Virus record (IMG/VR): IMGVR_UViG_3300025645_000061
Coordinates: 1-64,000 of that record
Direction: 5' to 3' (one strand)
DNA length: 64,000 bases
Source: a virus
Numbering within the stretch: position 1 is the stretch's first letter; each line of letters opens with the position of its first letter. The notes beneath the pieces were generated by a model. It ran no database searches. It worked only from the letters and a program-made list of their open reading frames with translations, and was not told where the DNA came from. Below are positions 5,019-63,740 of the stretch, piece after piece. A program made the position numbers and the translations under genes.

Positions 5019-5100
5019 AGTACATGGATAAGGGACAGGAACGGTTTCCTGCTTATCGTCACTCGTAAAGGGTTTAGCCGATAAATTACCCGGAGGTTGT

Positions 5101-5325: not shown

Positions 5326-5550
5326 AAGTGCTAGTTATAAGAAGCACGAAAAATAGTAACAGTAGCTACCTGTATAAAAGAAGCACTAATTAAAGAGTTT
5401 CTACTTAGGTGATAGCCGGGTAGACATGGTAGTAGATTAGGATAAATGTTGCATCTTTCTTCCGCTGAGTAGCCTATGTCGCTCATCTACCGAATAAGTT
5501 AATCGACGTATGCAAACGGTCTAAGTGGTTAACAACATACACAATTATAA
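5326..5550 (+). other. structured non-coding stretch before tRNA-Thr
   Basis: No gene is visible. GGTAGA (5419-5424) can pair with TCTACC (5486-5491), enclosing about 60 bases. GTTAATCGA near 5499 is complementary to the 5' end of tRNA-Thr (TCGATTAG). The segment GCAAACGGTCTAAGTGG near 5513 resembles a tRNA D-arm, but no matching T-arm was found. It could be a degenerate tRNA or a tRNA-processing leader. Confidence 0.35.
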
Positions 5551-5625
5551 GCTCGATTAGTTAACTCGGTATAACAAGGAACTTGTAATTCTTAGTAGGC
5601 AGTTCGAATCTGTCATTGAGCACCA
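5551..5625 (+). tRNA. tRNA-Thr (anticodon UGU)
   Basis: A complete cloverleaf: acceptor GCTCGAT/ATTGAGC (one wobble), D stem GTTA/TAAC with GG in the loop, anticodon stem AGGAA/TTCTT with loop CTTGTAA, T arm GGCAG-TTCGAAT-CTGTC, and an encoded CCA. It reads ACA codons, which suits an AT-rich phage. Confidence 0.9.
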
Positions 5626-5692
5626 AAAATTATACCCATTCTCTCTATTTCAATATAATATAATAAAAACTTACCCAACTGGAAAACTAATA

Positions 5693-7474
5693 ATGGCAAT
5701 AGCAACAGACATTGCAATTGATGGCACAGGAGCTATCTACTATAAAGGGGCTGTGCATGGTGCGGCTGGAGCCGGCTACTACACAGTAATTGAACTTCAT
5801 AGATTTGTACAAGATTTAGCAGATGATGCTACTGCTGCTGGTGATGATCTTATTGATATCACAAGCACAACACCTTCCGACAGATCAACAGATAACATTA
5901 TCTCTATCCTTACGGGTTACTTACTAGATGATACTAACGGTGCTGCTACAGACCCTATTACAGAACACTTGTATGATGGTTCTATTATTGAAGCAGACGG
6001 TACTATCTATGATGGTGTCGTGGTTATTGCTGGCGAAGGTATGGATTTGCAGATTATGCAAAACGGTGCTCAACTAGCCAATGACTACTGGAATACTATT
6101 CCGGATGGTCAGACTACCCCCGGTCTCAATAGAGATACAGCAAACGGTATCTCTCATAGATTTATGATTGAAGTGAACACTGCTGGCACACCTATTGACG
6201 GTAGACGTTTGATTGGTATGACTCGTGTTGACTTCTCTACAGACACAGTAGATGGTAAGACATTCTCAGAGTTTAAGATTAACGGTACTGCTCGTGGCAA
6301 TAACGTGATGGCTCTGACTTTTGCGAATGACTTGAATGATACGTCATCTGCTGCTGCATTCTCCACTATCGCTAACATCAAAGAAGGTTATAATCTTTTA
6401 GATGTAAACAATGATACAGTAAACGAAGCATACTACTCACAGTGGAACAGAGATTCTTACACTATTAACCAATTCTACCAGAGAATGAAGTATTTGTCTC
6501 GTGGTGCTGCGGATAACGTAGGTACTCTTTACGGTATTGATGCTAAAATCTTCCGTGGTATTACACACGAAGTAGCTCTTACTGATCTAACAACTGGTAT
6601 TTGGGTTGAACCTGAAGCATTGTCTTGGGGTACAGGCGCAACTGCTGGTACTGGACAATTACTTGCTATTGATAATACTGCTAGTGGTTCTGCTACTAAG
6701 TTATGGATGCAAATCCTAACAGGTGTTGCTCCAAATGCTAACACTATTACAAGTGCTACAAACGGTGCTACAGCAACAGCCGGTACAGTTGTAGAGCGTA
6801 CAATCTCTACTCCTTTTGTTGGTGTATCAACTGGTACTTCACTTATTGGTTCATATGGTTTAGGTCTAGAAACAGCAGACCTAAGTTCTACAGATAAAGT
6901 GTTCGACTTAACAAATACACAGATTACACCACCTAACAATGTAACATTTACAGTGTCTGGTATTGTGTCTGGTGAAGATAGAGTCCTAGTTGGCCCTGAT
7001 ACAGGTGCTACTGCTCTTGCTGATGGTCAGTTCTTAGTAAGTACAGCTATTACAGGTGCTTCTACTTCACTTATTGTTAAAGTTGGTACAGAAACCCCCG
7101 GTACTGGTACTAACTCAGCTACTGATACACCTAATACTGGTACTATCCGTATCCAAGAAGATACTACAGGTATTTTCCAGCGTGTTGCTTATACTGGCTT
7201 TACAGTTGGTGCTGGTATTATGACCTTCACTGGTATTTCTGGCCCACCTATTGCCTCTATCAACAACAAAGTGTTCATCAGTTATATTGATACACTTGCA
7301 GGGGGTACTTCTGTAGCTTACTCTTCTGTTTATGTTGCAGATAGAGATGTATTTGTAAGGGTTCGTGATTCTGGTACTGCTGGTGATGGGTTTAGTATTA
7401 AGACTTTTGAAACCAAAGGTACAGTAGGCTCAAACGGCGGATCAACATCTGCTATTAGAACCTCTGACGAATAA
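5693..7474 (+). CDS. large virion structural protein, probably fibre-like
   Basis: 593 residues, Thr/Gly/Ala/Ser-rich with almost no cysteine and repeated GTxTxATxGT-type runs in the second half, typical of beta-structured virion surface proteins. No enzyme motif is visible. It heads a 6-kb run of similar proteins before the terminase. The ribosome-binding site is weak (CTGGAAAAC). Frequent GGTACT/ACAGGT words suggest low-complexity expansion. The exact virion location is unknown. Confidence 0.6.
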   Translation: MAIATDIAIDGTGAIYYKGAVHGAAGAGYYTVIELHRFVQDLADDATAAGDDLIDITSTTPSDRSTDNIISILTGYLLDDTNGAATDPITEHLYDGSIIEADGTIYDGVVVIAGEGMDLQIMQNGAQLANDYWNTIPDGQTTPGLNRDTANGISHRFMIEVNTAGTPIDGRRLIGMTRVDFSTDTVDGKTFSEFKINGTARGNNVMALTFANDLNDTSSAAAFSTIANIKEGYNLLDVNNDTVNEAYYSQWNRDSYTINQFYQRMKYLSRGAADNVGTLYGIDAKIFRGITHEVALTDLTTGIWVEPEALSWGTGATAGTGQLLAIDNTASGSATKLWMQILTGVAPNANTITSATNGATATAGTVVERTISTPFVGVSTGTSLIGSYGLGLETADLSSTDKVFDLTNTQITPPNNVTFTVSGIVSGEDRVLVGPDTGATALADGQFLVSTAITGASTSLIVKVGTETPGTGTNSATDTPNTGTIRIQEDTTGIFQRVAYTGFTVGAGIMTFTGISGPPIASINNKVFISYIDTLAGGTSVAYSSVYVADRDVFVRVRDSGTAGDGFSIKTFETKGTVGSNGGSTSAIRTSDE

Positions 7475-7513
7475 TAGAGTCCTCATAGGGGTAAATTTAA
7501 GAGAGGTTAATAG

Positions 7514-9283
7514 ATGACAGTTACAGTTACTTGGGATGGCACTAATGGTGCTGGTGGTGATGGTGTTATTGATACCGCAGATAACGTAGGTAACTGGACT
7601 GCTATTAAAATTACTTCTGGTGGTCAAGCACCAACTGCTGTAGCTGCTGATGCTGCTTATGAAGGCACTAACAATGTTACCTGTCGATCTGATAACAAAC
7701 GTGTATATATGTATACAGATATTGGAGTGGGTAACGAGTTAAACTTTACAGGTGGTGGTAACGCTGAAGGGGAGTTGATCTATATTTGGGTCAACTTCCT
7801 AGCAAGCTCTCTCTTGGGAACACAAGCTGCGGGTTCATTAGGTGTTTTTCTTGAATCATCTACACCTTCCTCTACTCAATACCACTTGTGGTACTTCTAT
7901 GGGGCTGATAACTACACTGGTGGTTGGAAAAGGCTTGTACTAGATCCCACTAAGACAGTATCCGCTTCAAGCGGAACAGCTATTGACCTAACATCTGTTC
8001 GTTATATTGGGGCATTTGCACAAACAGTGGCTACTGCTAAGTTCGATAACTTTGTTGTTGACCAGTGTGCGGTTGGTAAGGGTATTAAAGTTACAGGTTC
8101 CTCAACATTAGGTTTGATGGAAGAGCTTCTGGCAAATGAAGAAGCTAATAGGTATGGGGTTTTAACCGCCCTAAATGACTCAGGAACAGCGTATCAATTA
8201 TCGGGTAGATTAACTCTCGGAGATAATGTTGGTGTTCTTGCTTCAAATATCACAGATGAAGATTCAAAAATCTTCCTTGCTGAACCCCTTTACTATCAAG
8301 GTGCTGTTTTGGCGGCTGCTCCGTTAACTTATACGGGGTTGGATATTGTAGGTAATGCTACTGGAGCTACAGATGTATCTCTTGGACAGCAAGTAGGGAC
8401 TACTCAAGGGCGAAACGGAATATCTATAATAGGAAATGACACCTATACTATGGATTTGGACACTGATGATACCGCTGTGGAATCTTCCGATTTCTTCGGG
8501 TGTACCTTAGAAAATATCACTGGTACTCTAAACATAGATGGTAATCATAATTTTGATTCTGTTACGATGGTTTCATGTTCTATATTGAATGTTGCAACAG
8601 GGATGACCATCAACAACCTATCTTCTGTAAATAGTGGTCAAATTATACTTACAGGTTTGGCAGCTCTTGTTGATAGTTTGGTGGTTAACAATGTAGCAAC
8701 AGTGGCTATTACCGTAGCTGATCTAGGACAATTGACTAATTGTAGGTTTACCTCTGATGGAACAGGACATGCAGTAGATTTAGGTACAATCTCTGTAACA
8801 GACACTATGTCTTGGAATAACACCGACACAGGTTATGCTGGTACAAATGGAGCTACAGGCAACGAGACAATTCTTGTAAATGTAGCTACAAGCCAAACGC
8901 TAACAATCAATGTAGGTAGTGGGTACTCCACACCAACGATATATAACACCGGAGCTGGTACTGTTTCTGTTGTATCTGGACAGGTGACGTTAACTATCAC
9001 TGTTAGAGACATTAATGATGCTACCTTATTAGAAAATGCAAGAGTTTATGTTACAGCAGCGGCTGGCGGCTCATTAACTGTTGGTACGGTTATTATAGAT
9101 AAAGCTTTAACCAACGTTAGTGGTGTTGTAACTGACACTAGGAGTTATTCAACAGATCAACCTATTGAAGGTGTTGTACGATTTAGCACATCTCCTAATT
9201 TCTACAAGACTTCCCCGATATCTGGTACTGTAAATAATGCCAGTGGATTATCACTAAATATACAAATGATTAAGGATGTGTAA
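7514..9283 (+). CDS. large virion structural protein, lectin- and beta-helix-like regions
   Basis: 589 residues. The first ~190 contain segments such as NELNFTGGG and YHLWYFYGADNYTGGWKRL that look like a jelly-roll lectin or carbohydrate-binding fold. The middle has short hydrophobic repeats resembling a parallel beta helix (LENITGTLNIDGNHNFDSV). The C-terminus looks like an Ig-like domain (VSGQVTLTITVRDINDATL). Overall it suits a receptor- or glycan-binding virion protein. Its stop overlaps the next start by one base. Confidence 0.55.
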   Translation: MTVTVTWDGTNGAGGDGVIDTADNVGNWTAIKITSGGQAPTAVAADAAYEGTNNVTCRSDNKRVYMYTDIGVGNELNFTGGGNAEGELIYIWVNFLASSLLGTQAAGSLGVFLESSTPSSTQYHLWYFYGADNYTGGWKRLVLDPTKTVSASSGTAIDLTSVRYIGAFAQTVATAKFDNFVVDQCAVGKGIKVTGSSTLGLMEELLANEEANRYGVLTALNDSGTAYQLSGRLTLGDNVGVLASNITDEDSKIFLAEPLYYQGAVLAAAPLTYTGLDIVGNATGATDVSLGQQVGTTQGRNGISIIGNDTYTMDLDTDDTAVESSDFFGCTLENITGTLNIDGNHNFDSVTMVSCSILNVATGMTINNLSSVNSGQIILTGLAALVDSLVVNNVATVAITVADLGQLTNCRFTSDGTGHAVDLGTISVTDTMSWNNTDTGYAGTNGATGNETILVNVATSQTLTINVGSGYSTPTIYNTGAGTVSVVSGQVTLTITVRDINDATLLENARVYVTAAAGGSLTVGTVIIDKALTNVSGVVTDTRSYSTDQPIEGVVRFSTSPNFYKTSPISGTVNNASGLSLNIQMIKDV

Positions 9284-52333: not shown

Positions 52334-52600
52334 ATGATTATAGAATTATCAGATGAATTTAGAATTGATAGAGATAAGTATAACCACACTCTAGAAGTCT
52401 ATAAAGAAGTTACAAACAATAAAACCAAAGAAGTTAATATAAAATGGGTTATTGTTGGTCATTATGCAACTTTAGAGCAGTGTATTAATTCTGCTTCTAG
52501 TTATAAGGTACTCAATGAGAACACTCAATTGAAATTTGAAGAGTATTTGAAACTACTTAATGTACATAATGAAGTCTTCTATAAGAAGGTTAGTGTATGA
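52334..52600 (+). CDS. hypothetical protein (88 aa)
   Basis: Unrecognised (MIIELSDEFRIDRDKYNHTL). ATG 52334 is two bases after the previous stop and is preceded by GGGGG; the longer frame would start inside it. It overlaps the ThyX start by 4 bases. Confidence 0.55.
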   Translation: MIIELSDEFRIDRDKYNHTLEVYKEVTNNKTKEVNIKWVIVGHYATLEQCINSASSYKVLNENTQLKFEEYLKLLNVHNEVFYKKVSV

Positions 52601-53529
52601 TTTCAGCTAAGATTATAGCGGATTCTATTAGTGAATATGGAGACCGAATAACTACATTTGAGTTAGAATACCCACGTTTTATTCATGGTGAGTTGATGAC
52701 ACATAGGTTGTTCAGTCGTAATGCTGCATCAAGTAGAGCTATCCCAATTAATAAGATGATGGATCAGGTCTTGACAGCACCAGCTATGCCTGTAGAATGG
52801 GGTCTTAATAAGTCTGGTATGCAAGCAGAGGAGAAGCATAAGTCTACTTCAACCTGTGAATGGGCTTGGAAACAGGCTGCTGAAAGGGCAGTTGTGAGTG
52901 CTAGAGAACTACAAGGCTTAGGTCTACACAAGCAGATTGTCAATCGTGTACTGGAACCCTTCCAGCTAATGAAGACGATTGTTACAGCTACTGAGTTTGA
53001 TAACTTCTGGTGGTTACGTTGTCACCCTGCTGCACAACCTGAGATTCATGTACTTGCAGATAAGATGTATGAGTTATATACTCAAAACGAACCTAATATT
53101 CTTAAGCCGGGAGAATGGCATGTACCTTATGTTTCTGTCGAGTGGTGTGCTGGGGGTTCAGGGATTATATACGGCAGGGAGGGACTAACAAGCTTAACAC
53201 TAGAGGAAGCCCAAAAGATTTCAGCTTCATGTTGCGCTCAAGTATCGTATCGTTTACTGGATTGGTCATTAACTAAAGCTGTTAAGATTTTTGATATGCT
53301 AGTTACCATGACACCAGTACATGCGAGTCCTTTTGAACATATTGCTACACCAATGCACTTTATAAGTGTGTACCGTATGCTTGATCGTGATATGGGGCAA
53401 GATGGAGAGGTTTGGGAAAGAGGGATTACTCACTTAGGTAAGTCTGGATATTTTTGGAGCGGGAATTTAAAAGGCTTCATTCAATACAGACAATTGCTTG
53501 ACAACAATACCTGTTGGAAGTACAGTTAA
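52597..53529 (+). CDS. thyX: flavin-dependent thymidylate synthase
   Basis: 310 residues. ThyX motif THRLFSRNAASSRA (about 35-48) replaces R-H-R-x7-S; C-terminal LKGFIQYRQLLDNN is the second conserved segment. Converts dUMP to dTMP with methylene-tetrahydrofolate and FAD. Larger than most bacterial ThyX (~220-250) because of insertions around 85-110 and 160-190. Its stop TAA is the first triplet of the 23-bp repeat array. Confidence 0.9.
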   Translation: MISAKIIADSISEYGDRITTFELEYPRFIHGELMTHRLFSRNAASSRAIPINKMMDQVLTAPAMPVEWGLNKSGMQAEEKHKSTSTCEWAWKQAAERAVVSARELQGLGLHKQIVNRVLEPFQLMKTIVTATEFDNFWWLRCHPAAQPEIHVLADKMYELYTQNEPNILKPGEWHVPYVSVEWCAGGSGIIYGREGLTSLTLEEAQKISASCCAQVSYRLLDWSLTKAVKIFDMLVTMTPVHASPFEHIATPMHFISVYRMLDRDMGQDGEVWERGITHLGKSGYFWSGNLKGFIQYRQLLDNNTCWKYS

Positions 53530-53699
53530 GGACTAAATCGAATTTTAGTTAAGGACTAAATCGAATTTTAGTTAAGGACTAAAAGGGATTTTAGTTAAGG
53601 ACTAAAAGGGATTTTAGTTAAGGACTAAAAGGGATTTTAGTTAAGGACTAAAAGGGATTTTAGTTAAGGACTAAAAGGGATTTTAGTTAAGGACTAAAT
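53526..53699. repeat. 23-bp palindromic repeat array A (7 full copies)
   Basis: Unit TTAAGGACTAAA(T/A)(C/G)GRATTTTAG recurs every 23 bases from 53526 to 53686 with a partial eighth copy. Each has the near-palindrome CTAAAA-N4-TTTTAG and a 7-base spacer TTAAGGA. Same family and orientation as the array at 63006-63212. Confidence 0.95.
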
Positions 53700-53865
53700 A
53701 GAAATAAGTCTACAAGGATACTATGTAGGTTTATAAAATTAAGTCTACCAAAATTGGGAGAGAAATATGAACCACCCACAAGTCTCCCCAACGTAAGCTA
53801 AGTTGATATTGGAGATAATCTATCACACATATGTAGTGAATGCAAACTGATTATAGGAGGTTAAA
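53700..53865 (+). other. short non-coding stretch after repeat array A
   Basis: Contains a possible hairpin AAGTCTAC/GTAGGTTT near 53706-53731 with two wobble pairs, and a second AAGTCTAC. No gene longer than 9 codons was found. Confidence 0.4.
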
Positions 53866-54228
53866 ATGAAGGTTGAAAGTAAAGAGGTAAGAGTACCCGT
53901 GGAGGTATTAACAGAGTTTTTCCTGAATCACGGAGAACCTCATAAAACAAATATAGAGTATCAAATTTTTGTTAACCCTTTAGAAGATGATCGTCAAGTG
54001 ACAGTTAAAGAAATATTCATTAATAGTGATGGTGAGTCTGAAGAAGATATCATACTTTGTATTCCTGTTGCTTGTGTTGAGGTGTTTACAAATGTTCTCC
54101 TAAAGTATGCAAGAAATGAAACACCTAAAGATTTTGCACTAGAAAGGGAAACAAAAGAAATGTTAATCAGTAATAAGGTATACTGTTTCGGTTGTATAGA
54201 ATCTTTTATACCAGAGGAGGAATACTGA
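53866..54228 (+). CDS. hypothetical protein (120 aa)
   Basis: Unrecognised, AGGAGG ribosome-binding site. Acidic central region (NSDGESEEDIILCIPVACVE) and a C-terminal CFGCIE pair. First gene after repeat array A; its stop overlaps the next start by one base. Confidence 0.6.
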   Translation: MKVESKEVRVPVEVLTEFFLNHGEPHKTNIEYQIFVNPLEDDRQVTVKEIFINSDGESEEDIILCIPVACVEVFTNVLLKYARNETPKDFALERETKEMLISNKVYCFGCIESFIPEEEY

Positions 54229-54443
54229 TGGAAGAACTAGATATAAATAAACGCCATGAGGAATTTATACTTGATGTAATTAATTCTTCAAAAGTAAAAA
54301 AAGTAACTTGCAAAATAATAGGGGAGCATACCCCTAAAATTGAAGGTTTTAGAAAGACTAAAATTGTTATTGCAGGGGTAGTGTTCTTTGTGGTATCATT
54401 TGAAGATATAACAGATTTTTATACTGAGGATGCTTTACAATAA
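54228..54443 (+). CDS. hypothetical protein (71 aa)
   Basis: Unrecognised (MEELDINKRHEEFILDVINS). ATG 54228 follows GAGGAGG; the longer frame from 54192 would be inside the previous gene. C-terminus has a hydrophobic strand (IVIAGVVFFVVSF). Confidence 0.55.
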   Translation: MEELDINKRHEEFILDVINSSKVKKVTCKIIGEHTPKIEGFRKTKIVIAGVVFFVVSFEDITDFYTEDALQ

Positions 54444-54465
54444 ACATATAAAGGAGTTATAAAGT

Positions 54466-54690
54466 ATGTCACCAAATGAATTCCTAGAAAAACACGAAGA
54501 AGTTATAGCTGCTGTAGAGGCACGTTGTAAAGCTGACGGTGTAGACTGTAGGGTGATTGATAAGGTTAGAGCAAGTAATTACAGAGAAACGTGGTTTATC
54601 ATTGACATGGAAATTTATAAAGTGTTTAATAATGGTCAAACAACTAACCATGAATACCTTGGAGTATACTCAAATGGACAACACTACTAA
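54466..54690 (+). CDS. hypothetical protein (74 aa)
   Basis: Unrecognised (MSPNEFLEKHEEVIAAVEAR). Two cysteines near 31-40. AAAGGAG ribosome-binding site. Its end overlaps the next gene by 17 bases. Confidence 0.55.
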   Translation: MSPNEFLEKHEEVIAAVEARCKADGVDCRVIDKVRASNYRETWFIIDMEIYKVFNNGQTTNHEYLGVYSNGQHY

Positions 54691-54811
54691 AAAGAAAGAT
54701 AGGAACTTTGTACATAAGCACATGGAACGTTTTAACAAACCAAAAACCCATAAGGACAATAAGAACGATTACAAACGTAAACCTAAACATAAGGAAATAG
54801 AGGAGGAGTGA
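54674..54811 (+). CDS. small very basic protein (45 aa)
   Basis: MDNTTKKKDRNFVHKHMERF then a lysine-rich tail with an acidic end (KEIEEE). ATG 54674 follows GGAG; the longer frame is out of order with the previous gene. Could bind nucleic acid. Overlaps the next start by one base. Confidence 0.5.
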   Translation: MDNTTKKKDRNFVHKHMERFNKPKTHKDNKNDYKRKPKHKEIEEE

Positions 54812-54924
54812 TGTTACAAGCACTAACAACATGGATAAACACAGACAATTTTAAATTAGTATTTTACTCTATTGAGTTTATAACAATGTCTGCAATTATA
54901 ACTAACGCAATACACCAGTGGTAA
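54811..54924 (+). CDS. small membrane-like peptide (37 aa)
   Basis: MLQALTTWINTDNFKLVFYS then IEFITMSAIITNAIHQW: hydrophobic second half, one likely membrane helix. GAGGAGG overlaps the previous gene's end. Short and absent from a minimum-length ORF list. Confidence 0.5.
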   Translation: MLQALTTWINTDNFKLVFYSIEFITMSAIITNAIHQW

Positions 54925-54959
54925 CTTTTAAGATATAATAATAATAATGAAAATAAAGG

Positions 54960-54987
54960 TTGATTAGCTCTACAGGTTGTATATAAT
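54960..54987 (+). promoter_or_regulatory. promoter of the rIIA-like gene
   Basis: TTGATT at 54960, 16-base spacer and a perfect TATAAT at 54982-54987, then the leader AAACAAACGAGAGGC before the start at 55022. Confidence 0.75.
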
Positions 54988-55021
54988 AGCTACAACTTAA
55001 ACAAACGAGAGGCTTTAAAAC

Positions 55022-57043
55022 ATGATCCCGAATCAAACAGGTGTTCAAGCAGTAGTATCCGGTAACATGGAAACTGCACAGGCTAAAATTAAAATGAGCA
55101 GTCATATGGTTGACCTTCTTTCTAGTCGTGTTTACACAGATAAGATTTCTGCTGTTATTCGTGAGTTATCCTGTAATGCTTGTGATGCACAGGTTGCAGC
55201 TAACGTAACTACACCCATTGAAGTTCACTTACCCACTCGTTTTGAGCCTTACTTTGAGGTTAAAGATAACGGTACTGGTTTGTGCCATGAAGATGTTATG
55301 GATTTGTATGTAACATATGGTGCTTCTACTAAGCAAGAATCTAATGATGCTGTAGGTTTCATGGGTATTGGTTCTAAGTCTCCATTCAGTTATGTAGATG
55401 CCTTCACAACAACATCTAACTTCAAGGGTGTTAAACGTGTGTACAGTGTGTATAAGAACAAGGGTATTCCAGAGGTAGTATTGCTTTCTACAGAAGACAC
55501 TACTGAATCTAACGGTTTAGCAGTTAAAGTTTCTGTCAAAGAAGGAGATATCTATAACTTTGAAGTTAGTGCTAGGAAAATTTACTTCTTCTTTAACGTA
55601 GCACCTACTTGTAACTTTACTCTTGATTCTCTCAAAGATAAGATTGATGTAGACACTAGTGAGTTTTCTACATACCCTAATGATTACAGTTCAGAAATTA
55701 AAGCTGTTATGGGTCAAGTTGCATATGCAGTACCTGACAGTGACTCCCTTCGGAAACTGCAAACATTAGTTAAGAAGCGTAACCTTGTTATCAAGTTTAA
55801 CATCGGTGAGGTACAACCCGCAGCCAGTAGAGAACATCTGTCTAATGATGAAAATACAAGCAAGAACCTTGAAGCTAAACTGGACAGAATATATACAGTT
55901 TATAAACAAGAGATTCTAGATAAATCTCAAGAGTTTGATACAGTACGAGAAGCTTATGCGTATCTTACAAACGCTCTTGGTTCAAACAAAGCTAACCTTG
56001 AGCTAAATTATGGTGGTAAAAGTTATGAAGATTGGAACAAAAGTATTGAAACTGCTATTGATTCTATCAATAATACTTTTACAGGTACAATGTACGAGAG
56101 GGATTCTGGTTGGGGAAGTAAATCTTGCAATATGAATACAGTTATTTATGCACCTAGCTTAATACTAGGAAGTCATACCAATAATATTTCCTTCTTAATT
56201 AAAGACCTTAAATCCGGTGGGGTTGGAGCTTACAAAAGTGCAATGCCGAAAGGTACTAGTGGGTTTGTTGTTGACAATCGGAAAGAAGCAGAAGATATTT
56301 GTAAGCAGTTGATTTTTAATGTTAATAGTGTTACCTTCTATAAAGCTTCTGAGATTCATAAACCAATTAAGTCAGTTAAAAGTAACCCTGTTATTAAAGT
56401 TATTAAGAAGCAGGAAGGTGGTAGAGCTTATACTTCTACGCTAGAGATTGACCTTAAGAGTATAAACAAAATAGCTGTGTATGTTTCTGCTAATAGAAAC
56501 GGTTACAATGACCATAACGGGAATTACCACAGTAACTTACATGATGTATTTTCCCTTGTTACTGCTGGTATATACTCTTCTATATTTGTTGTACCTAAAT
56601 CAGTGTTGAAGAAAATCCACAATGTTAACCTACGAGAGCTTTCACCAAAGCTTACTGAAAGCAAGGTAACTAAAGCAATGATCCGTAATAAAGCTTTAGG
56701 AAGGTTTAACACTTATAAGCTTGACAAAGAGTTGTATCGAGTGTTTAGCTCCTCAGAAGAAATTACACCACAATACAAAAGGGTTAATAGGGAAGCTAGT
56801 ATTAGGTATGATAGAACTTTAGATGTACAATGTGATAGAATTATGGAATTTGTTACTTTTCACTCTAAAACTCAGAAGTTGATTAACAGGGTTTGTGGGT
56901 ATACTGGTAACTTAGCTTCTGTTAAGGATAAACTTACTAACAAGTATAAGTTTTTGGAAAACTTTTCAACTACTGATACAGAATCTATAAAGTATGTTAA
57001 GTGTTTAGTTAAAGCACAAGATTCAGGTGAATTTAATACTTGA
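55022..57043 (+). CDS. rIIA-like: rIIA-like GHKL ATPase
   Basis: 673 residues. N-terminal GHKL/histidine-kinase-type ATPase fold: RELSCNACDAQ (N-box), VKDNGTGL and GFMGIGSKSPFSYV (G-boxes). The rest is an extended region like T4 rIIA. In T4, rIIA and rIIB affect lysis timing and exclusion by prophages; the molecular role is not settled. It has its own promoter and its stop codon is used as the -35 box of the rIIB-like promoter. Confidence 0.85.
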   Translation: MIPNQTGVQAVVSGNMETAQAKIKMSSHMVDLLSSRVYTDKISAVIRELSCNACDAQVAANVTTPIEVHLPTRFEPYFEVKDNGTGLCHEDVMDLYVTYGASTKQESNDAVGFMGIGSKSPFSYVDAFTTTSNFKGVKRVYSVYKNKGIPEVVLLSTEDTTESNGLAVKVSVKEGDIYNFEVSARKIYFFFNVAPTCNFTLDSLKDKIDVDTSEFSTYPNDYSSEIKAVMGQVAYAVPDSDSLRKLQTLVKKRNLVIKFNIGEVQPAASREHLSNDENTSKNLEAKLDRIYTVYKQEILDKSQEFDTVREAYAYLTNALGSNKANLELNYGGKSYEDWNKSIETAIDSINNTFTGTMYERDSGWGSKSCNMNTVIYAPSLILGSHTNNISFLIKDLKSGGVGAYKSAMPKGTSGFVVDNRKEAEDICKQLIFNVNSVTFYKASEIHKPIKSVKSNPVIKVIKKQEGGRAYTSTLEIDLKSINKIAVYVSANRNGYNDHNGNYHSNLHDVFSLVTAGIYSSIFVVPKSVLKKIHNVNLRELSPKLTESKVTKAMIRNKALGRFNTYKLDKELYRVFSSSEEITPQYKRVNREASIRYDRTLDVQCDRIMEFVTFHSKTQKLINRVCGYTGNLASVKDKLTNKYKFLENFSTTDTESIKYVKCLVKAQDSGEFNT

Positions 57044-57068
57044 CACAAGGTTTAACAACAAGTAATAT
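57040..57068 (+). promoter_or_regulatory. promoter overlapping the rIIA stop
   Basis: TTGACA at 57040-57045 contains the rIIA TGA stop, 17-base spacer, TAATAT at 57063-57068. It drives the rIIB-like gene. Confidence 0.75.
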
Positions 57069-57097
57069 AACTTTAAATTAATTGAGAGGATATAAAT

Positions 57098-58501
57098 ATG
57101 AGTACAAATAATGTTGGTTGTTTAAGTGAAGCCCAAAAAGAAGATATCTATGCTCTGTGGGAAGAGGGCGGTGTAACTAAAACACATCTAGCAGCTCAGT
57201 TTGATGTTTCTACACGAACCATTGGTAGGGTTATTGATTCTTTTGAAGAGGAAGAAGAATATTCGAACTCTGAAGAAGTCGAATCAGAGCTTTACGATCC
57301 ACTTAAACTCAATTGTAAAGCACTTGGGTATAAGGTGGGTGACTTGTTTAAATACAAAGAGGGTATAGATGAATATGATATGACTTTTGAACCTGATTCT
57401 ATTCTTTCATTATCTAGTGATGATGGTTCTATCCTCCCTTTGTTTGTAGAGGAGGGTTATCCTACGGAGATGGAACACTATGAGTACCTGAGCTTTGTAA
57501 CCCCTTGTGAAGAAGTTCTTGAAGACACAAATGAAACCTTTTGTGAAGATGCTGAATACCAGTTTGAGGAATATGTTGAAGTAACTAATTTAGGTCATGT
57601 GTACACTAATTACAATGCTCTCGCTGATAAGCTTAATTTGAAAGGCTTTAAATCTGGTGAAAAACCAACAAAAGGGGGAGTTTATGTTGTACTCGCGGCA
57701 ACTCCACACCCTGATACAGGGTTAATTGTATACGTTATTGAGTCCTTGTCAGGAGAACAGTATATGATTTCGGGGAATGGTTTATCTTCTCATAAAGGAA
57801 CAGAAGGGAAATATACTTTAATCCCCGGCAGTATTATCGTAATTCAGTATAAAGGTGAGGTATACACTGTAGATGCTTCTCATGGTTCCTTTGATGCAAT
57901 CGTAAACTATTGTAGTCAAGGTTGGTATGATTCTGCTGTAAACTTAGCTCAACCTATCAAGGCTATCACAGAGTTCACCAAAGGCGATGTAACAGTCTCT
58001 AACGGTCATGTGATGTATATGGGTGATGAAGTTAATGATGGACTAGCTCTGGCTATCTTACGTCTTATGGAAGAAGGTGACGAAGGATTTAAGAAGCTTG
58101 TAGCTTTCTTGGGTAAAGTTAAAAAGAACCCTTCTTATAAGTCTCGTATGGAATTGTTTGGGTTTATTAAGGCTGCTGACATTGAGATTACCGACTCTGG
58201 TGACTTGATTTGTTGGAAAGGTATTAAGGATGATTGGACAGACTGTTATTCAGGTTCTATTGATAACTCAATTGGTGCTATCGTTACAATGGAACGTACA
58301 GACGTTAACGATGACTCTAACCAAACCTGTAGTGCTGGGCTACACTGTTGTGCTAAGAGCTACTTAGATTCCTTCTATGGATCACGAGTGGTCAAGGTGT
58401 TGGTTAACCCTGAAGACGTTGTATCAATTCCCACAGACTACAATGATGCTAAGATGCGAACCTGTAAGTATGTAGTTATTGAGGAAGTTACAGAGCTTTA
58501 A
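57098..58501 (+). CDS. rIIB-like: rIIB-like protein with N-terminal HTH
   Basis: 467 residues. Residues ~8-50 (LAAQFDVSTRTIGRVIDSFE) form a helix-turn-helix like sigma region 4. A highly acidic segment follows. From about 260 to the end lies the rIIB core: MEEGDEGFKKLVAFLGKVKK, ITDSGDLICWKGIKDDWTDC, SAGLHCCAKSYLDSFYGSRV and VNPEDVVSIPTDYNDAKMRT. T4 rIIB lacks so long a middle part; residues ~160-250 look like an added domain. It probably acts with the rIIA-like protein. Confidence 0.85.
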   Translation: MSTNNVGCLSEAQKEDIYALWEEGGVTKTHLAAQFDVSTRTIGRVIDSFEEEEEYSNSEEVESELYDPLKLNCKALGYKVGDLFKYKEGIDEYDMTFEPDSILSLSSDDGSILPLFVEEGYPTEMEHYEYLSFVTPCEEVLEDTNETFCEDAEYQFEEYVEVTNLGHVYTNYNALADKLNLKGFKSGEKPTKGGVYVVLAATPHPDTGLIVYVIESLSGEQYMISGNGLSSHKGTEGKYTLIPGSIIVIQYKGEVYTVDASHGSFDAIVNYCSQGWYDSAVNLAQPIKAITEFTKGDVTVSNGHVMYMGDEVNDGLALAILRLMEEGDEGFKKLVAFLGKVKKNPSYKSRMELFGFIKAADIEITDSGDLICWKGIKDDWTDCYSGSIDNSIGAIVTMERTDVNDDSNQTCSAGLHCCAKSYLDSFYGSRVVKVLVNPEDVVSIPTDYNDAKMRTCKYVVIEEVTEL

Positions 58502-58519
58502 ATAATATGAGAAAACGGG

Positions 58520-58548
58520 TTGACATAGGGCAGGGAAGCCCCTATCAT
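58520..58548 (+). promoter_or_regulatory. promoter with a palindromic spacer
   Basis: TTGACA at 58520-58525, 17-base spacer, TATCAT at 58543-58548. The spacer holds an inverted repeat, ATAGGG (58525-58530) and CCCTAT (58540-58545), overlapping both boxes; a candidate operator. Confidence 0.7.
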
Positions 58549-58580
58549 TGCCTTATTGAAATCAAACGAGAGGAATTAAT

Positions 58581-58874
58581 ATGTTAGATAAAGCTGTTGT
58601 ACTAGAGAGAGCAATCCGTTGGAGAGCAATAGCAATGGTAGCCGTCCTCAACAAAGAGAGTGGAGCTGGAGATACAGCCTTCGCAAATGGAAGTGCTTAT
58701 ATTGATGTTCTTAACGTACCTTGGAATAAACAAGAGGGAGTCTTGACAAGAGAAAGTATTCAACTGTATGCTGATGGGCTAGCAACTAAGTTTATACTTG
58801 AAAGTGGAAATAACTTGATGCAATTTCTAGATGATAATGTTAAACTTGAAGTCCTAGAGATTGTTACACAATAA
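58581..58874 (+). CDS. hypothetical protein (97 aa)
   Basis: Unrecognised, helical (MLDKAVVLERAIRWRAIAMV). A leader with AAATCAAACGAGAGGAA precedes it. Sole gene between the palindromic promoter and the tRNA region. Confidence 0.55.
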   Translation: MLDKAVVLERAIRWRAIAMVAVLNKESGAGDTAFANGSAYIDVLNVPWNKQEGVLTRESIQLYADGLATKFILESGNNLMQFLDDNVKLEVLEIVTQ

Positions 58875-58885
58875 ATAACAAGGAT

Positions 58886-58942
58886 ACGCTGTGTTGAAAT
58901 CTGGATAAGCTGTAGTCCAGAGCGTGAGAGCACATACAGTGC
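58886..58942 (+). ncRNA. hairpin pair upstream of tRNA(CAU)
   Basis: ACGCT (58886-58890) pairs with AGCGT (58921-58925), enclosing CTGGA/TCCAG (58901-58905 with 58916-58920). A second hairpin GCAC-ATACA-GTGC follows at 58930-58942. Not a cloverleaf. Could be a processing leader, a decayed tRNA or a small RNA. Confidence 0.35.
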
Positions 58943-58950
58943 CTAATTAA

Positions 58951-59028
58951 GGGCTGGAAGCTTAACAGGTTATAAGCAGTCCCCTCATAAGGGAAAGATA
59001 GGGAGTTCAAGTCTCTCACGGCCCACCA
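58951..59028 (+). tRNA. tRNA with anticodon CAU (Met or Ile2)
   Basis: Acceptor GGGCTGG/ACGGCCC (one wobble, one mismatch), D stem GCTT/AAGC with GG in the loop, anticodon arm TCCC-CTCATAA-GGGA, T arm GGGAG-TTCAAGT-CTCTC, encoded CCA. CAU may read AUG or, if lysidine-modified, AUA, which is more useful in an AT-rich genome. Confidence 0.8.
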
Positions 59029-59047
59029 AATTTAAGGAGAAAGATTG

Positions 59048-59467
59048 ATGACTAGAATTAATTTAATTGATCCAGAAGAACTTCACGACCAGCATCTTGT
59101 AGCGGAATATCGTGAGTTATTCATGGTGGGTTCTTCTTTACAAAGATCGCTTAAATCACCAAATTGGAACTTGGCAAAAATTCCAAAATCCTTCACGCTC
59201 AATAAAGGTCACGTTTCTTTCTTTTACGACAAAGGTCGATATCTGTCTAAGAGGTATAAACTCTTGATTAAGGAGATGAAAAATAGAGGCATGAATCCCG
59301 ATCCAGATAGAGTATTTAAACGTGAACAATGGCCCGATGAATTTTATCTAGATTGGGTTGCGTCCGACCACGATAAAGATATCATTCGTGAGAGGATACA
59401 AGAGAAAATTGATATGAAACCTAACTGGTATAAAAAAACGGTGGTTACGAGTATGGCTACAATTTAA
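59048..59467 (+). CDS. denV-like: pyrimidine-dimer DNA glycosylase (T4 DenV-like)
   Basis: 139 residues from ATG 59048 (AAGGAG upstream), same size as T4 endonuclease V. After Met removal T2 is the nucleophile, R3 and E23 (AEYREL) match T4 catalytic positions. GHVSFFYDKGRYLSKRYKLL and MKPNWYKK are conserved. It excises UV cyclobutane dimers, an advantage in sunlit water. The neighbour tRNA and fabD are unrelated in pathway. Confidence 0.92.
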   Translation: MTRINLIDPEELHDQHLVAEYRELFMVGSSLQRSLKSPNWNLAKIPKSFTLNKGHVSFFYDKGRYLSKRYKLLIKEMKNRGMNPDPDRVFKREQWPDEFYLDWVASDHDKDIIRERIQEKIDMKPNWYKKTVVTSMATI

Positions 59468-59481
59468 TGGAGTACCTTGTA

Positions 59482-60378
59482 ATGGACAGTAAGATAGCTT
59501 TTGTATTTCCCGGTCAAGGTTCACAGAAGATAGGGATGCTATCAGCGTTAGCAGAGAAGTTTGATATAGTAACTTCTACCTTTGCAGATGCGTCAGATGT
59601 TTTAGGGTATGACCTTTGGGATTTAGCTCAAAACGGTACTCAAGAAGACATTACTAAGACTGAGTATACTCAACCCTTACTACTTACAGTTAGCGTAGTA
59701 ATGTGGAGAGTTTGGATTCAAGAGGGAGGTACAAAACCCGCTTTCATGTTAGGTCATAGTATGGGAGAATGGTCTGCTCTAGTTTGTGCCGGTGTGGTTG
59801 AATTTAAGGATGCTGTTCGTCTAGTGCGTAATCGTGGTGCTTATATGCAGGAAATTGGGGAAGGTGCTATGGCTGCTGTTATTGGTTTAGACAGTGATAC
59901 AGTTAAGTCTATTTGTGCTGATGCTTGCCAAGGTGAAGAAGTTACTGCTGTAAATTTTAATTCTCCCGGTCAGGTAGTTATTGCAGGAAAATATTTAGCT
60001 GTAGAAAGGGCTATTAAGGGTTGTAAAGAAGCTGGAGCTAAACGTATTTTTCATTTACCCGTAAGTGCTCCATTTCATACAAACCTTATGCAACCAGTAG
60101 CAGATAGATTAACAGTGGACATTATGAGTACAAAGTTTTATAATCCAGAAATACCAGTTGTACACAATGTCAACGCCCAAACTGAGGATGACCCTGAACG
60201 CATCAAACAGTTGATGATAGAACAAATATGTAGTCCTGTTCTTTGGGTTGACTGTGTGAAGACATTAACTTATAATGGTGTTACCTCCATAGTTGAATGT
60301 GGTGCTGGAAGGGTACTTAGTAGGCTTTGTAAACGTATTGATAGTACGTTAGAGATATACCAAATTAAGGGAGTATAG
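59482..60378 (+). CDS. fabD: malonyl-CoA:ACP transacylase (FabD)
   Basis: 298 residues from ATG 59482 (GGAG 9 bases upstream; ATG 59467 overlaps denV). Close to E. coli FabD in order of motifs: FVFPGQGSQ near 6-14, GHSMGEWSALVCAGV with nucleophile S93, AVNFNSPGQVVIAG and VSAPFHTNLM with H199. Complete length, no frameshift. It loads malonate on ACP for fatty-acid synthesis. Its final codons and stop are inside the tRNA-Arg gene. Likely acquired from a gammaproteobacterial host and kept as an auxiliary metabolic gene (inference). Confidence 0.93.
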   Translation: MDSKIAFVFPGQGSQKIGMLSALAEKFDIVTSTFADASDVLGYDLWDLAQNGTQEDITKTEYTQPLLLTVSVVMWRVWIQEGGTKPAFMLGHSMGEWSALVCAGVVEFKDAVRLVRNRGAYMQEIGEGAMAAVIGLDSDTVKSICADACQGEEVTAVNFNSPGQVVIAGKYLAVERAIKGCKEAGAKRIFHLPVSAPFHTNLMQPVADRLTVDIMSTKFYNPEIPVVHNVNAQTEDDPERIKQLMIEQICSPVLWVDCVKTLTYNGVTSIVECGAGRVLSRLCKRIDSTLEIYQIKGV

Positions 60379-60444
60379 TGTAAGGGATTAACACAGGGGT
60401 CTTCTAAACCCTTAATCTAGGTTCGAATCCTAGTATTCCCGCCA
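60369..60444 (+). tRNA. tRNA-Arg (anticodon UCU)
   Basis: Acceptor GGGAGTA/TATTCCC (one wobble), D stem GTGT/ACAC, anticodon stem GGGGT/ACCCT with loop CTTCTAA, T arm CTAGG-TTCGAAT-CCTAG, encoded CCA. Its first ten bases include the fabD stop TAG. Reads AGA, a common codon in this phage. Confidence 0.9.
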
Positions 60445-60456
60445 AACAAATAAAGC

Positions 60457-60485
60457 TTGACATAAACATTTAACTTAGTTAATAT
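60457..60485 (+). promoter_or_regulatory. promoter of the transglycosylase operon
   Basis: AAAGC-TTGACA at 60457, a 17-base spacer and TAATAT at 60480-60485, followed by AAACAAATAGAGG before the start at 60518. Confidence 0.78.
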
Positions 60486-60517
60486 ACTCAAACGTTAAAC
60501 AAATAGAGGTATTAAGA

Positions 60518-61060
60518 ATGTACGGAAATGATTACAACAGTAACTTCGGAACATTTTTCATCATATCCATTATTATCTTGATGATATTAAGTGGGTTAAG
60601 TTATAGGGCAGAAGCGTATTGTAAGCCTGTAGAGGCTCTTAGTGATAAACAGGTACAAACACTCTACCAATCCTATAACTACGGTGTAAGGTATGATATG
60701 GGGCTTACACTGGCAGCTATAGCTTGGAAGGAGTCTAACGCTGGTCTTTACCCTATTAATATTAGTGATCCCTCTTTTGGAGTACACCATATCCTTTTGA
60801 CAACAGCCATGAAACGTTCTAATACAAAAGACACCAGTTATCACAAGAATATGTTAGCTTCAAGTTTATTAGCTCATGATGTTAGTGCTTCTTATGCCAT
60901 TAAAGAAATTAAATATTGGTTTAAATATCATAAAGGTGATTGGTTTAAGGTTTGGTCTTCATATAATGCTGGATTTAATATAAAAGCTGGTGTAAAGTAT
61001 GCTGAGAGTATACAAAAGAAAGTTAATCTTATTAAAAGATGTCTAATAGCAGGAGGTTAA
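60518..61060 (+). CDS. membrane-anchored lytic transglycosylase-like protein
   Basis: 180 residues. Residues ~12-28 (FFIISIIILMILSGLSY) form a signal-anchor or signal peptide. SLT-type domain: catalytic E72 in AIAWKESNAG, SDPSFGVHHI, and WFKVWSSYNAGF. It could be a signal-arrest-release endolysin, which needs no holin to reach the wall, or a wall enzyme used in infection. It lies in an early-type operon, unlike usual lysis genes. Confidence 0.8.
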   Translation: MYGNDYNSNFGTFFIISIIILMILSGLSYRAEAYCKPVEALSDKQVQTLYQSYNYGVRYDMGLTLAAIAWKESNAGLYPINISDPSFGVHHILLTTAMKRSNTKDTSYHKNMLASSLLAHDVSASYAIKEIKYWFKYHKGDWFKVWSSYNAGFNIKAGVKYAESIQKKVNLIKRCLIAGG

Positions 61061-61062
61061 TC

Positions 61063-61191
61063 ATGAAGTTCATTATAAGGTTTATTGATTATATAAGAAT
61101 TAAGTGGACAATCAGAAAAATTAGAGCTAAGTTGGTAACTATATCTAAAGCTAATAGGGAGACCTCTGAAGATGATGCAGTTCAACGATGA
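61063..61191 (+). CDS. small basic protein (42 aa)
   Basis: MKFIIRFIDYIRIKWTIRKI then RAKLVTISKANRET: amphipathic basic helix. AGGAGG lies between the transglycosylase stop and this start. Overlaps the next gene by 20 bases. Confidence 0.5.
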   Translation: MKFIIRFIDYIRIKWTIRKIRAKLVTISKANRETSEDDAVQR

Positions 61192-61342
61192 CATAGAAGC
61201 AGAAGAACACCTTATATCTTGTGGGTTTACTAAGAAACAAGATAAGAAAGAAAATAAAAAGAAAAGATTGTTATTCAAAGATAACATGGGTAATATTATG
61301 GAAATCAGAAAGGGACAAGTGTTTTTTGATATTAAACTTTAA
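61172..61342 (+). CDS. small charged protein (56 aa)
   Basis: MMQFNDDIEAEEHLISCGFT then a lysine-rich centre and EIRKGQVFFDIKL. GGGAG is 10 bases upstream. Short, unrecognised. Confidence 0.5.
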   Translation: MMQFNDDIEAEEHLISCGFTKKQDKKENKKKRLLFKDNMGNIMEIRKGQVFFDIKL

Positions 61343-61358
61343 AACTAGGAGCACCATT

Positions 61359-61508
61359 ATGAAAGTTGTAGACTTTAAGACACAGAAACAAACAACATTT
61401 GCAACTAGGCACAAAGAACATATTAGTCGGAAGACTAAGAAAGCTGCTAAAGAGCTTCGTACTTACCGTAAGAATAGGCACGAGTGGTGGAATCTCTATA
61501 TAGACTAG
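61359..61508 (+). CDS. small basic protein (49 aa)
   Basis: MKVVDFKTQKQTTFATRHKE then HISRKTKKAAKELRTYRK. ATG 61359 follows AGGAGC; the longer frame from 61221 is only an accident of the neighbouring frame. Highly basic, could bind nucleic acid. Confidence 0.5.
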   Translation: MKVVDFKTQKQTTFATRHKEHISRKTKKAAKELRTYRKNRHEWWNLYID

Positions 61509-61521
61509 CGGGGGGTATTAT

Positions 61522-61815
61522 ATGTACTACAAAGAAGCAACAATAGTAATTGATGAATTTGATGGAGTAGACCTAAAGGTTTTCCAAGAGTATCCTATGG
61601 GGTCTGGTAATGTGTCCTTATACATTGATGGGGGAAAGTATACAAGTGGTTATGAGAACGTTCTACGAGGTCTAGAGCACTGTTACCTAATATACTTGAT
61701 GATGAATGGAACACAGATGCCTATACCAGCTAAAGCTTTCCTTGATAAACACATTAAGGATGCACTAGATTCATCAGATATTAATTATCTTAAAAATAAA
61801 GCTTGCATTAAATAA
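61522..61815 (+). CDS. hypothetical protein (97 aa)
   Basis: Unrecognised (MYYKEATIVIDEFDGVDLKV). Mixed alpha/beta with no motif. Its 3' end carries the promoter of the next transcription unit. Confidence 0.6.
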   Translation: MYYKEATIVIDEFDGVDLKVFQEYPMGSGNVSLYIDGGKYTSGYENVLRGLEHCYLIYLMMNGTQMPIPAKAFLDKHIKDALDSSDINYLKNKACIK

Positions 61816-61830
61816 CCAAAGGTCTATACT
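61803..61830 (+). promoter_or_regulatory. sigma70-type promoter
   Basis: AAAGC-TTGCAT at 61803, 16-base spacer, TATACT at 61825-61830. The -35 lies in the end of the previous gene; transcription would start near 61837, just before the conserved leader. Confidence 0.7.
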
Positions 61831-61852
61831 GTGTATACAAACTTAAAGAGAG

Positions 61853-61894
61853 AAGGGAATTGTTTCGGTTCCCTTAACAATAGAGGAAGATATT
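61853..61894 (+). promoter_or_regulatory. conserved leader with alternative hairpins (copy B)
   Basis: AAGGGAA (61853-61859) can pair perfectly with TTCCCTT (61869-61875), or ATTGTT (61859-61864) with AACAAT (61876-61881) next to the GAGGAA ribosome-binding site. The two share bases and exclude each other. Same layout as the leader at 307-348. Confidence 0.65.
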
Positions 61895-62239
61895 ATGAGT
61901 AACCAAGATAAAGTATCAGTAAAACGTAACTTAATCAAAGACTTAGTAGAAAGCACTAAGGGTCGTACTTTCCAAGTAACACACTTTCGTAAGACTCCAA
62001 AGCTTAATAAGGCTACTGGTGAGATGGAAACTATGTCTACTATGGACTGTCGTACAGGCGTTACAAAGCACCTTAAAGGTGGCGAGAGCACCATCAAGCA
62101 TGTAGAAGACCTTATCGGTGTTTGTAAGATGGAGCGTAATGCTCTTGGTCGATTTGAAGAAGGCCAGTACCGCTCATTTAGTGCTGATCTTGTTACAGAG
62201 GTTAAGTTCCAAGGTGTTACTTACAATTTTTCAGAGTAA
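61895..62239 (+). CDS. phage protein, SH3-like barrel (tentative)
   Basis: 114 residues. GRTFQVTHFRKTPKLNKATG, STMDCRTGVTKHLKGGES and EGQYRSFSADLVTEVKFQGV resemble the small SH3-barrel-like proteins found in many phages (pattern judgement only). Expression is probably controlled through the leader element. Confidence 0.55.
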   Translation: MSNQDKVSVKRNLIKDLVESTKGRTFQVTHFRKTPKLNKATGEMETMSTMDCRTGVTKHLKGGESTIKHVEDLIGVCKMERNALGRFEEGQYRSFSADLVTEVKFQGVTYNFSE

Positions 62240-62244
62240 ACATA

Positions 62245-62418
62245 ATGGAATCTACTATATTGTCTAAAGAGCAAATGTATGCTCTGAGAATTGGAGGGTT
62301 AGTGTTTGTGAATTCCCTTGAAGAATCTAAAGAGGTTGAAAGGTTAACCTCTATCGGGGGAACTCGCAGAACTGCACAAATGACTAATGATGAATTTAAT
62401 CGCTTGGAGAGGAAATAA
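62245..62418 (+). CDS. hypothetical protein (57 aa)
   Basis: MESTILSKEQMYALRIGGLV then VFVNSLEESKEVERLTSIGG. Unrecognised, 5 bases after the preceding stop. Basic C-terminus. Confidence 0.55.
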   Translation: MESTILSKEQMYALRIGGLVFVNSLEESKEVERLTSIGGTRRTAQMTNDEFNRLERK

Positions 62419-62420
62419 AC

Positions 62421-62636
62421 ATGGCTACAGTATGCCCTATAAAGAAAGAAGATGGCTCTGCAAACCTAGATTACACTGTAACAGATGATTACTTGTTATC
62501 AGAGCACAGTTATGGAGCTAATTATAAAAACACTTGTATTGTAAAGTGTGCTAGGCTTGAGGACGCTGTTAATTTTCTAAAAGTGTTGTATACTCAACAC
62601 GAGAATGTTATTACTTTAAACATTAAAGAGGGGTAA
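62421..62636 (+). CDS. hypothetical protein (71 aa)
   Basis: MATVCPIKKEDGSANLDYTV then SYGANYKNTCIVKCARLEDA: three cysteines. Two bases after the previous stop with GAGAGG just before. Unrecognised. Confidence 0.55.
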   Translation: MATVCPIKKEDGSANLDYTVTDDYLLSEHSYGANYKNTCIVKCARLEDAVNFLKVLYTQHENVITLNIKEG

Positions 62637-62640
62637 TATT

Positions 62641-62847
62641 ATGGAGACAACTATATATTGGGCACAACAGCTTATAAGCCTTCAGGAGGACTTTAAACAT
62701 AAGAATTATGATACCTCTTTGGGGTTTGCTGAGGTCTGTTGTAGGGCAGCTCTAGGGGCTGCTAAAGGTGGTCATGAAAGTATATCTGAAGAAATATTAG
62801 ACCTTAGGGATTTAGCTTTGAAAGAACACCAAGTAAGGAGTATATAG
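62641..62847 (+). CDS. hypothetical helical protein (68 aa)
   Basis: METTIYWAQQLISLQEDFKH, helical throughout, unrecognised. Last full-length gene of this small-gene operon. Confidence 0.55.
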   Translation: METTIYWAQQLISLQEDFKHKNYDTSLGFAEVCCRAALGAAKGGHESISEEILDLRDLALKEHQVRSI

Positions 62848-62849
62848 TT

Positions 62850-62906
62850 ATGATTATAGAATGTCATTGGTGCGAAAGACCTATTCTTCCTACGGTGGAG
62901 GCTTGA
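62850..62906 (+). pseudogene. truncated small Cys protein (18 codons)
   Basis: After AAGGAG the frame MIIECHWCERPILPTVEA stops. C-x-x-C followed by nothing suggests the start of a zinc ribbon cut by a stop; no continuation is seen in other frames, so it is either a remnant or a micropeptide. Confidence 0.35.
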
Positions 62907-63005
62907 TTAGTAAAGGGACAATTACAGCGTTAAAACGTTTGCAACCCTAAAGGAATGGAAAAGCTTGTTATAGGTATGTGTGGCATCTTGAGGAAATTTG
63001 ATATG

Positions 63006-63212
63006 GGACTAAAACGAATTTTAGTTTAGGACTAAAACGAATTTTAGTTTAGGACTAAAACGAATTTTAGTTTAGGACTAAAACGAATTTTAGTTTAGGA
63101 CCAAATCGAATTTTAGTTTAGGACCAAATCGAATTTTAGTTTAGGACCAAATCGAATTTTAGTTTAGGACCAAATCGAATTTTAGTTTAGGACCAAATCG
63201 AATTTTAGTTTA
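63006..63212. repeat. 23-bp palindromic repeat array B (9 copies)
   Basis: Unit GGACTAAAACGAATTTTAGTTTA, then a variant with GGACCAAATCG, recurs every 23 bases from 63006 to 63212. Each contains CTAAAA-CGAA-TTTTAG or a decayed version. Same family and strand as array A. Confidence 0.95.
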
Positions 63213-63269
63213 GGAGGGCTTACCCTGACAAACTTAAAAACTGTATGCACCAAAACAGTGCGTAGCTAA

Positions 63270-63284
63270 TGATAATGATTATCA
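63270..63284. promoter_or_regulatory. perfect Fur-type palindrome
   Basis: TGATAATGATTATCA matches the 7-1-7 Fur consensus TGATAATNATTATCA at all specified positions. A second half-like TGATAATCA lies near 63369. No obvious iron gene is next to it, so binding is not established. Confidence 0.5.
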
Positions 63285-63289
63285 CTCGC

Positions 63290-63298
63290 TGTGGATAA
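63290..63298 (-). promoter_or_regulatory. DnaA box 1
   Basis: TGTGGATAA, the exact complement of TTATCCACA. Confidence 0.7.
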
Positions 63299-63316: not shown

Positions 63317-63325
63317 TGTGGATAA
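63317..63325 (-). promoter_or_regulatory. DnaA box 2
   Basis: A second perfect TGTGGATAA, 27 bases from the first and in the same direction. Confidence 0.7.
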
Positions 63326-63740
63326 CTCATTTGTCAAGTGTATAGAAAAATAAAGTTATACCCTTGAATGATAATCAATCGCATTACCCAAAAGTCGCCC
63401 GCTCTCCCTCCGGGGTCGTTCGATAACTTATTATAACTTATTAAAAAACAAAAAACAACCCTTTATTTCATTTATTTTTATTTTATTTCAATAATACACT
63501 AAAAAACCCTGTAAGGCCCAGAATCCCTTTCTAAGCTATTTAAGCCTTAAGTGATACAATCGCATTACCCATACCCGTGGAATGGCTTAGATCGCATTCT
63601 ATGAGGTCAAATATACCGAATATTTGTTAAAGCTTGGCATGATAAGTGCATATGGTCAAGAGTGGGTCGTTAATCCATTATATCAAAAAATTAAACAAAA
63701 AACAACCCATAAATAAAAATAAATTAAATTATATAAAAGC

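Follow-up and report, generated by a model that had tools for sequence, protein, structure and literature searches.

Two arrays of a 23-bp repeat in an aquatic tailed-phage genome: candidate iteron-like initiator-binding sites, one of them beside origin-like DNA

Two arrays of one family of 23-bp tandem repeats, here called array A and array B, lie 9.3 kb apart in IMG/VR virus record IMGVR_UViG_3300025645_000061 (G000), a linear record of 68,428 bases holding an aquatic tailed-phage genome with a contractile-tail module. The window comprises positions 1-64000 of this record; the remaining 4.4 kb were analysed too, within L027, in which positions 3720-7790 correspond to 63720-67790. Both arrays occupy long intergenic gaps, array A at the end of the thymidylate synthase gene thyX and array B ahead of two DnaA boxes and AT-rich DNA. 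Our best, tentative explanation is that they are iteron-like arrays binding an initiator, with array B at an origin and array A as a second control site. The features concerned are:

53526-53698, plus strand: array A, seven full 23-bp units (53526-53686) and a partial eighth
63002-63215, plus strand: array B, nine units, with palindromes spanning 63008-63208, plus a remnant of 7 bases
63290-63298, minus strand: perfect DnaA box, TTATCCACA
63317-63325, minus strand: perfect DnaA box, TTATCCACA, 27 bp from the first
63423-63502: AT-rich tract (86%), the fourth least stable 80-bp segment in the 68-kb genome, candidate unwinding element

Both arrays were delimited by Tandem Repeats Finder (TRF), a unit pattern and a table of units. 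TRF reported period 23 at 53524-53698 (7.6 copies, 98% matches) for array A and at 63006-63215 (9.1 copies) for array B. The unit pattern gave 16 matches, all on the plus strand and all within the two arrays, compared with a mean of 0.11 and a maximum of 1 in dinucleotide shuffles, and a search with the 19-base core allowing up to 4 mismatches added one weak site, within thyX. These results bear out the initial annotation, which had described two arrays of one 23-bp family in the same orientation, with seven full and nine copies, the first of them starting on the thyX stop codon (TAA, 53527-53529).

Array A consists of TTAAGGACTAAATCGAATTTTAG twice followed by TTAAGGACTAAAAGGGATTTTAG five times, and array B of TTTAGGACTAAAACGAATTTTAG four times, the first copy carrying TATGGGA, followed by TTTAGGACCAAATCGAATTTTAG five times. 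The unit types are thus locally amplified blocks (2+5 in A, 4+5 in B), so that the 16 units represent no more than about four independent variants. Across the four types 18 of 23 positions are constant. Position 3 distinguishes the two arrays, being A in 7/7 units of array A and T in 9/9 units of array B, which indicates that units have spread within and not between the arrays.

A CTAAAA-N4-TTTTAG palindrome had been proposed for every unit. It is perfect in nine of the 16 (5/7 in array A, 4/9 in array B), and the left arm reads CTAAAT in two A units and CCAAAT in five B units. The right arm and the TTWAGGA stretch, which had been taken for a spacer, are constant; the stretch falls inside the segment of the unit that varies least, ATTTTAGTTWAGGACYAAA. 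Since the left arm has changed in 7/16 units with no compensating change, the direct repeat and not the dyad is the better-conserved feature. Two overlapping inverted repeats can be read in the array, ACTAAAA-N4-TTTTAGT (7+4+7) and TTTTAGT-N5-ACTAAAA (7+5+7); they interlock, and the orientation of the half-site ACTAAAA therefore flips at intervals of 11 or 12 bp.

The same data bear on a reading at RNA level, in which the arrays, once transcribed, would fold into long hairpin rods acting to block, process or stabilise transcripts where the thyX and 62.8-kb operons end. The predicted RNA fold of array A is strong (-50.9 kcal/mol, z -9.1), but that of array B is much weaker for its size (z -2.45) because five of its units lose pairing. 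Together with the uncompensated left arms, the lack of a U-run, a negative terminator scan of the arrays and Rfam matches to tRNAs only, this makes such a role very unlikely.

The main sceptical rival is that the arrays are neutral or weakly functional minisatellites, an ancestral unit having been expanded at two places by slippage or unequal recombination. The blocks of identical units agree with this, and copy number appears to vary: a second assembly of the same phage, G007 (IMGVR_UViG_3300022178_003671), has at least 6 units of the second type in array B where G000 has 5. Tandem arrays are also abundant elsewhere in the phage (9-bp x14, 80-bp x2.4, 39-bp x3.5 and 52/63-bp repeats), one 80-bp copy being seemingly absent from assembly G002, and the 23-bp arrays are not conserved outside this phage. 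However, 18/23 positions have been kept at two loci 9.3 kb apart despite the locus-private changes, which suggests selection on a shared core, and two perfect DnaA boxes adjoin array B. We therefore consider the minisatellite explanation rather unlikely.

The two DnaA boxes start 75 bp after array B and adjoin this array only. Among 300 genomes simulated at matching composition with a first-order Markov model, none had two perfect boxes within 60 bp. Iterons, DnaA boxes and a DNA unwinding element occur together in known iteron origins (PMC10797057), and the order at array B, iterons followed by DnaA boxes followed by AT-rich DNA, is therefore an origin-like layout. The arrays resemble such origins further in being tandem direct repeats of one orientation in non-coding DNA, for which a unit of about 17-24 bp is expected. 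The phage encodes a complete T7-type replisome, with a primase-helicase (phrog_239), a PolA-type DNA polymerase (phrog_17), a gp2.5-like single-stranded DNA-binding protein and an exonuclease, and this replisome would need directing to a start site.

The arrays would bind a sequence-specific protein, most likely the putative replication initiator of the phage. In the scheme that we propose, this initiator would load onto the nine tandem sites of array B and act together with host DnaA at the two boxes downstream, opening the AT-rich DNA near 63.42-63.50 kb and bringing in the T7-type primase-helicase. Array A would be a second binding locus of the same site family, which may titrate the initiator or pair with array B. 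Iterons for a phage initiator had been among the roles suggested initially: array B supports this by its layout, which comprises direct repeats, a pair of perfect DnaA boxes and AT-rich DNA, while the search for the initiator itself was negative.

Several observations weigh against this origin model. No cognate initiator gene of Rep_3, RepA_N or lambda O type was found: Rep_3, RepA_N and Phage_rep_O gave no match in G000 even at E 10, in a record that is possibly incomplete, and Pfam scans of the tested open reading frames (ORFs) of unknown function revealed no other initiator. Within the AT-rich tract lies AACAAAAAACAACCC, a sequence seen again at two further sites of the early-promoter region, so the tract is a possible unwinding element that is partly a copy of an early-promoter cassette. 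A GATC cluster was not found at the array B site. Third-codon GC skew was -0.09 at 4-33 kb, +0.15 at 33.7-53.5 kb, +0.09 at 53.8-62.9 kb and -0.05 at 63.8-68.4 kb, where the early value is based on few sites and expression or transcription class confounds. By the bacterial skew rule the origin would fall near 33.6 kb and the terminus close to array B, which is weak evidence against an origin at array B. Finally, a search of 2.9 million viral contigs found array carriers only among contigs of the same phage; with no independent relative bearing the arrays, their conservation cannot be shown.

At 63270-63284, in the interval separating array B from the DnaA boxes, there is a perfect 7-1-7 palindrome of Fur type, TGATAATGATTATCA; such a palindrome was present in 0/300 simulated genomes, and a phage origin or early region might be under iron-responsive control.

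Protein binding without a role in replication is a rival reading. The arrays could be operators of a phage or host regulator, or packaging or partition sites, whose bound protein organises the transcription-unit junctions at 53.5 and 63.2 kb. Their position in long intergenic gaps agrees with this, as do the location of array B directly upstream of eight strong early-promoter cassettes, half-sites alternating every 11-12 bp as in many dimeric operators, and the Fur-type palindrome nearby. On the other hand, promoter-like matches in 52.5-64 kb numbered 39 compared with 38.7 expected by chance, no convincing promoter is arranged around either array, no partition gene of ParA, ParM or TubZ type was recognised among the scanned ORFs, and seven and nine copies exceed those of usual operators. 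On balance this explanation is doubtful. The related suggestion of protein-bound boundary elements fits the location of the arrays, but nothing indicates a boundary there.

The iteron-like model has parallels in well-studied replicons. P1 and F each carry, some way from the origin array, another array of the same iterons, and in satellite phage P4 the loci ori and crr are two separated sites with the same initiator-binding repeats; in all three, the second arrays titrate the initiator or pair with the first. Direct repeats of roughly 20 bp in tandem are common to the plasmid and phage-plasmid origins P1 oriR/incA, F incB/incC and RK2 oriV and the present locus, as are DnaA boxes and AT-rich DNA next to one of the arrays. 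Unlike in iteron plasmids, no Rep_3 or RepA_N gene was found here, the 23-bp units contain an inverted repeat, and the arrays are 9.3 kb apart. P4 differs in its repeats and in its alpha protein, a primase, helicase and initiator in one, of which no counterpart was recognised. The lambda origin has internally symmetric sites and adjacent AT-rich DNA; its sites too are in tandem, at about 19 bp. The four lambda iterons, however, lie inside the O gene, whereas those described here, nine and seven of them, are in intergenic DNA and come with no O homologue that we could find. Lambda O, a dimeric phage initiator, binds the four 19-bp iterons (PMC3985674). The origin of the satellite PLE, a phage-related element, likewise has direct repeats that are semi-palindromic and lie in non-coding DNA (PMC7145576), but consists of three repeats of about 30 bp served by a RepA_N initiator (PMC8263062), a family not found here.

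For most virulent phages in this size range, little is known of how the start of replication is chosen. A compact candidate origin built on a defined 23-bp unit offers a short DNA probe with which an initiator overlooked by sequence searches might be captured, and if array A controls initiation, plasmid-style copy control would extend to a virulent phage. The fuller proposition, that a virulent phage with a T7-type replisome uses an iteron origin with an undescribed initiator family and host DnaA, and a second distant array as control, is in our judgement unlikely.

Profile matches and tRNA searches agreed with the gene content that had been given for the 9-kb block between the arrays, namely rIIA/rIIB-like genes, a denV-like gene, fabD and two tRNAs. 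The block and the gene to its left contain:

52597-53529, plus strand: thyX (phrog_85, 3.2e-101)
55022-57043, plus strand: rIIA (phrog_612, 1.5e-121)
57098-58501, plus strand: rIIB (phrog_609, 1.5e-83)
58951-59025: tRNA with a CAU anticodon loop (found by Rfam only, 44.5 bits; missed by ARAGORN)
59045-59467, plus strand: denV-like N-glycosylase (phrog_1183, 8.9e-44)
59467-60378, plus strand: fabD-like malonyl/acyl transferase (PF00698, 2.6e-31; GHSMG motif)
60369-60444: tRNA-Arg(TCT)

Helix-turn-helix matches at the N-terminus of rIIB were weak and below the cutoff. The fabD-like protein had no PHROG match, and the only close relative among the viral contigs was from this phage. The label 'accessory' for the block is doubtful, because rIIA and rIIB are common in such phages.

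The arrays had also been proposed as recombination sites that move this block, by deletion, circularisation or exchange. Their direct orientation and similarity permit homologous deletion in principle. The position-3 letter is nevertheless wholly array-private, and since exchange between A and B would erase such private letters, frequent exchange is not supported. Contigs of the same phage are present in other assemblies, but only G007 spans the arrays: it aligns to window positions 42597-63215 (~20.6 kb) with 3 substitutions, its start falling within array B, and retains both arrays and the block. The 2.9 million viral contigs contained no deletion junction and no other array carrier. As no recombinase was recognised beside the arrays either, this role is highly improbable. 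Repeated intergenic elements are also seen in the promoter-stem-loop (PeSL) cassettes of T4-type phages, which, as cited in PMC4503421, have been proposed to mediate gene shuffling. A PeSL combines an early promoter with a stem-loop and is non-tandem, whereas the present arrays are without promoter or terminator; the early cassettes of this phage at 63.7-67.8 kb are closer to mobile PeSLs than the arrays are.

Searches for related arrays yielded several leads that were rejected. By BLAST, array B resembled iterons upstream of repB in a Vibrio fluvialis plasmid (E 1e-4) and array A iterons beside repB in a Streptococcus parasanguinis plasmid (E 3e-5). However, when the arrays were written backwards as a non-biological control, they matched sequences of plasmids, at E 2e-10 and 6e-5. 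BLAST scores are inflated when the query is tandem, and the RepB-iteron matches are therefore no evidence of kinship. Single matches of GACTAAAAGGGATTTTAGT in Helicobacter pylori plasmids (E 0.7 to 9) were at chance level, and a match in L025 was a lone unit-like site in an unrelated contig. Arrays with CTAAAANNNATTTTA arms among genome contigs came to eight stretches, mostly with one match each, in AT-rich metagenome-assembled genomes. A 23-bp palindromic array was not found in Limnohabitans phage DC31 or Rheinheimera phage Barba9A, comparison of annotations gave no useful synteny with Alteromonas phage PT11-V22, and no non-coding tandem array of period 15-60 was found in the thyX relatives (L002-L022). 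Carrier searches via rIIA and fabD returned the same phage only.

At the protein level, the terminase is ~47% identical to that of Pakpunavirus-type phages, the capsid protein 40-42% identical to counterparts in Limnohabitans and Rheinheimera phages, and the DNA polymerase ~49% identical to that of Aeromonas phages. A relative at 84% in the major capsid protein (MCP), IMGVR_UViG_3300007276_001267, is a fragment of 10 kb. The 53-64 kb region has no DNA-level match among annotated phages. The genome looks like that of a virulent myovirus, and no plasmid functions were recognised in it.

The record starts with a 9-bp array, (ATAAGTTGT)14, at 1-126, and two further assemblies begin within the same array with 14-15 copies. 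Because the record breaks at this tandem array, the genome is probably incomplete. An 80-bp tandem repeat of 2.4 copies lies at 1355-1544; G002 appears one copy short, as its start aligns at window position 0 and its capsid gene is shifted by 79 bases.

Downstream of array B, the eight early-promoter cassettes at 63720-67790 are near-identical (TTGCAAAGG...TGNTATAATGACTACACACA, with an extended -10), each preceding a small ORF, and two of the eight additionally carry a hairpin leader, GCGAATCGAAACGGTTCGTTTC. Positions 66760-67070 of the record are non-coding and contain 52- and 63-bp repeats with the palindrome TTGCATATGCAA, and this region is a second candidate origin or a candidate packaging region.

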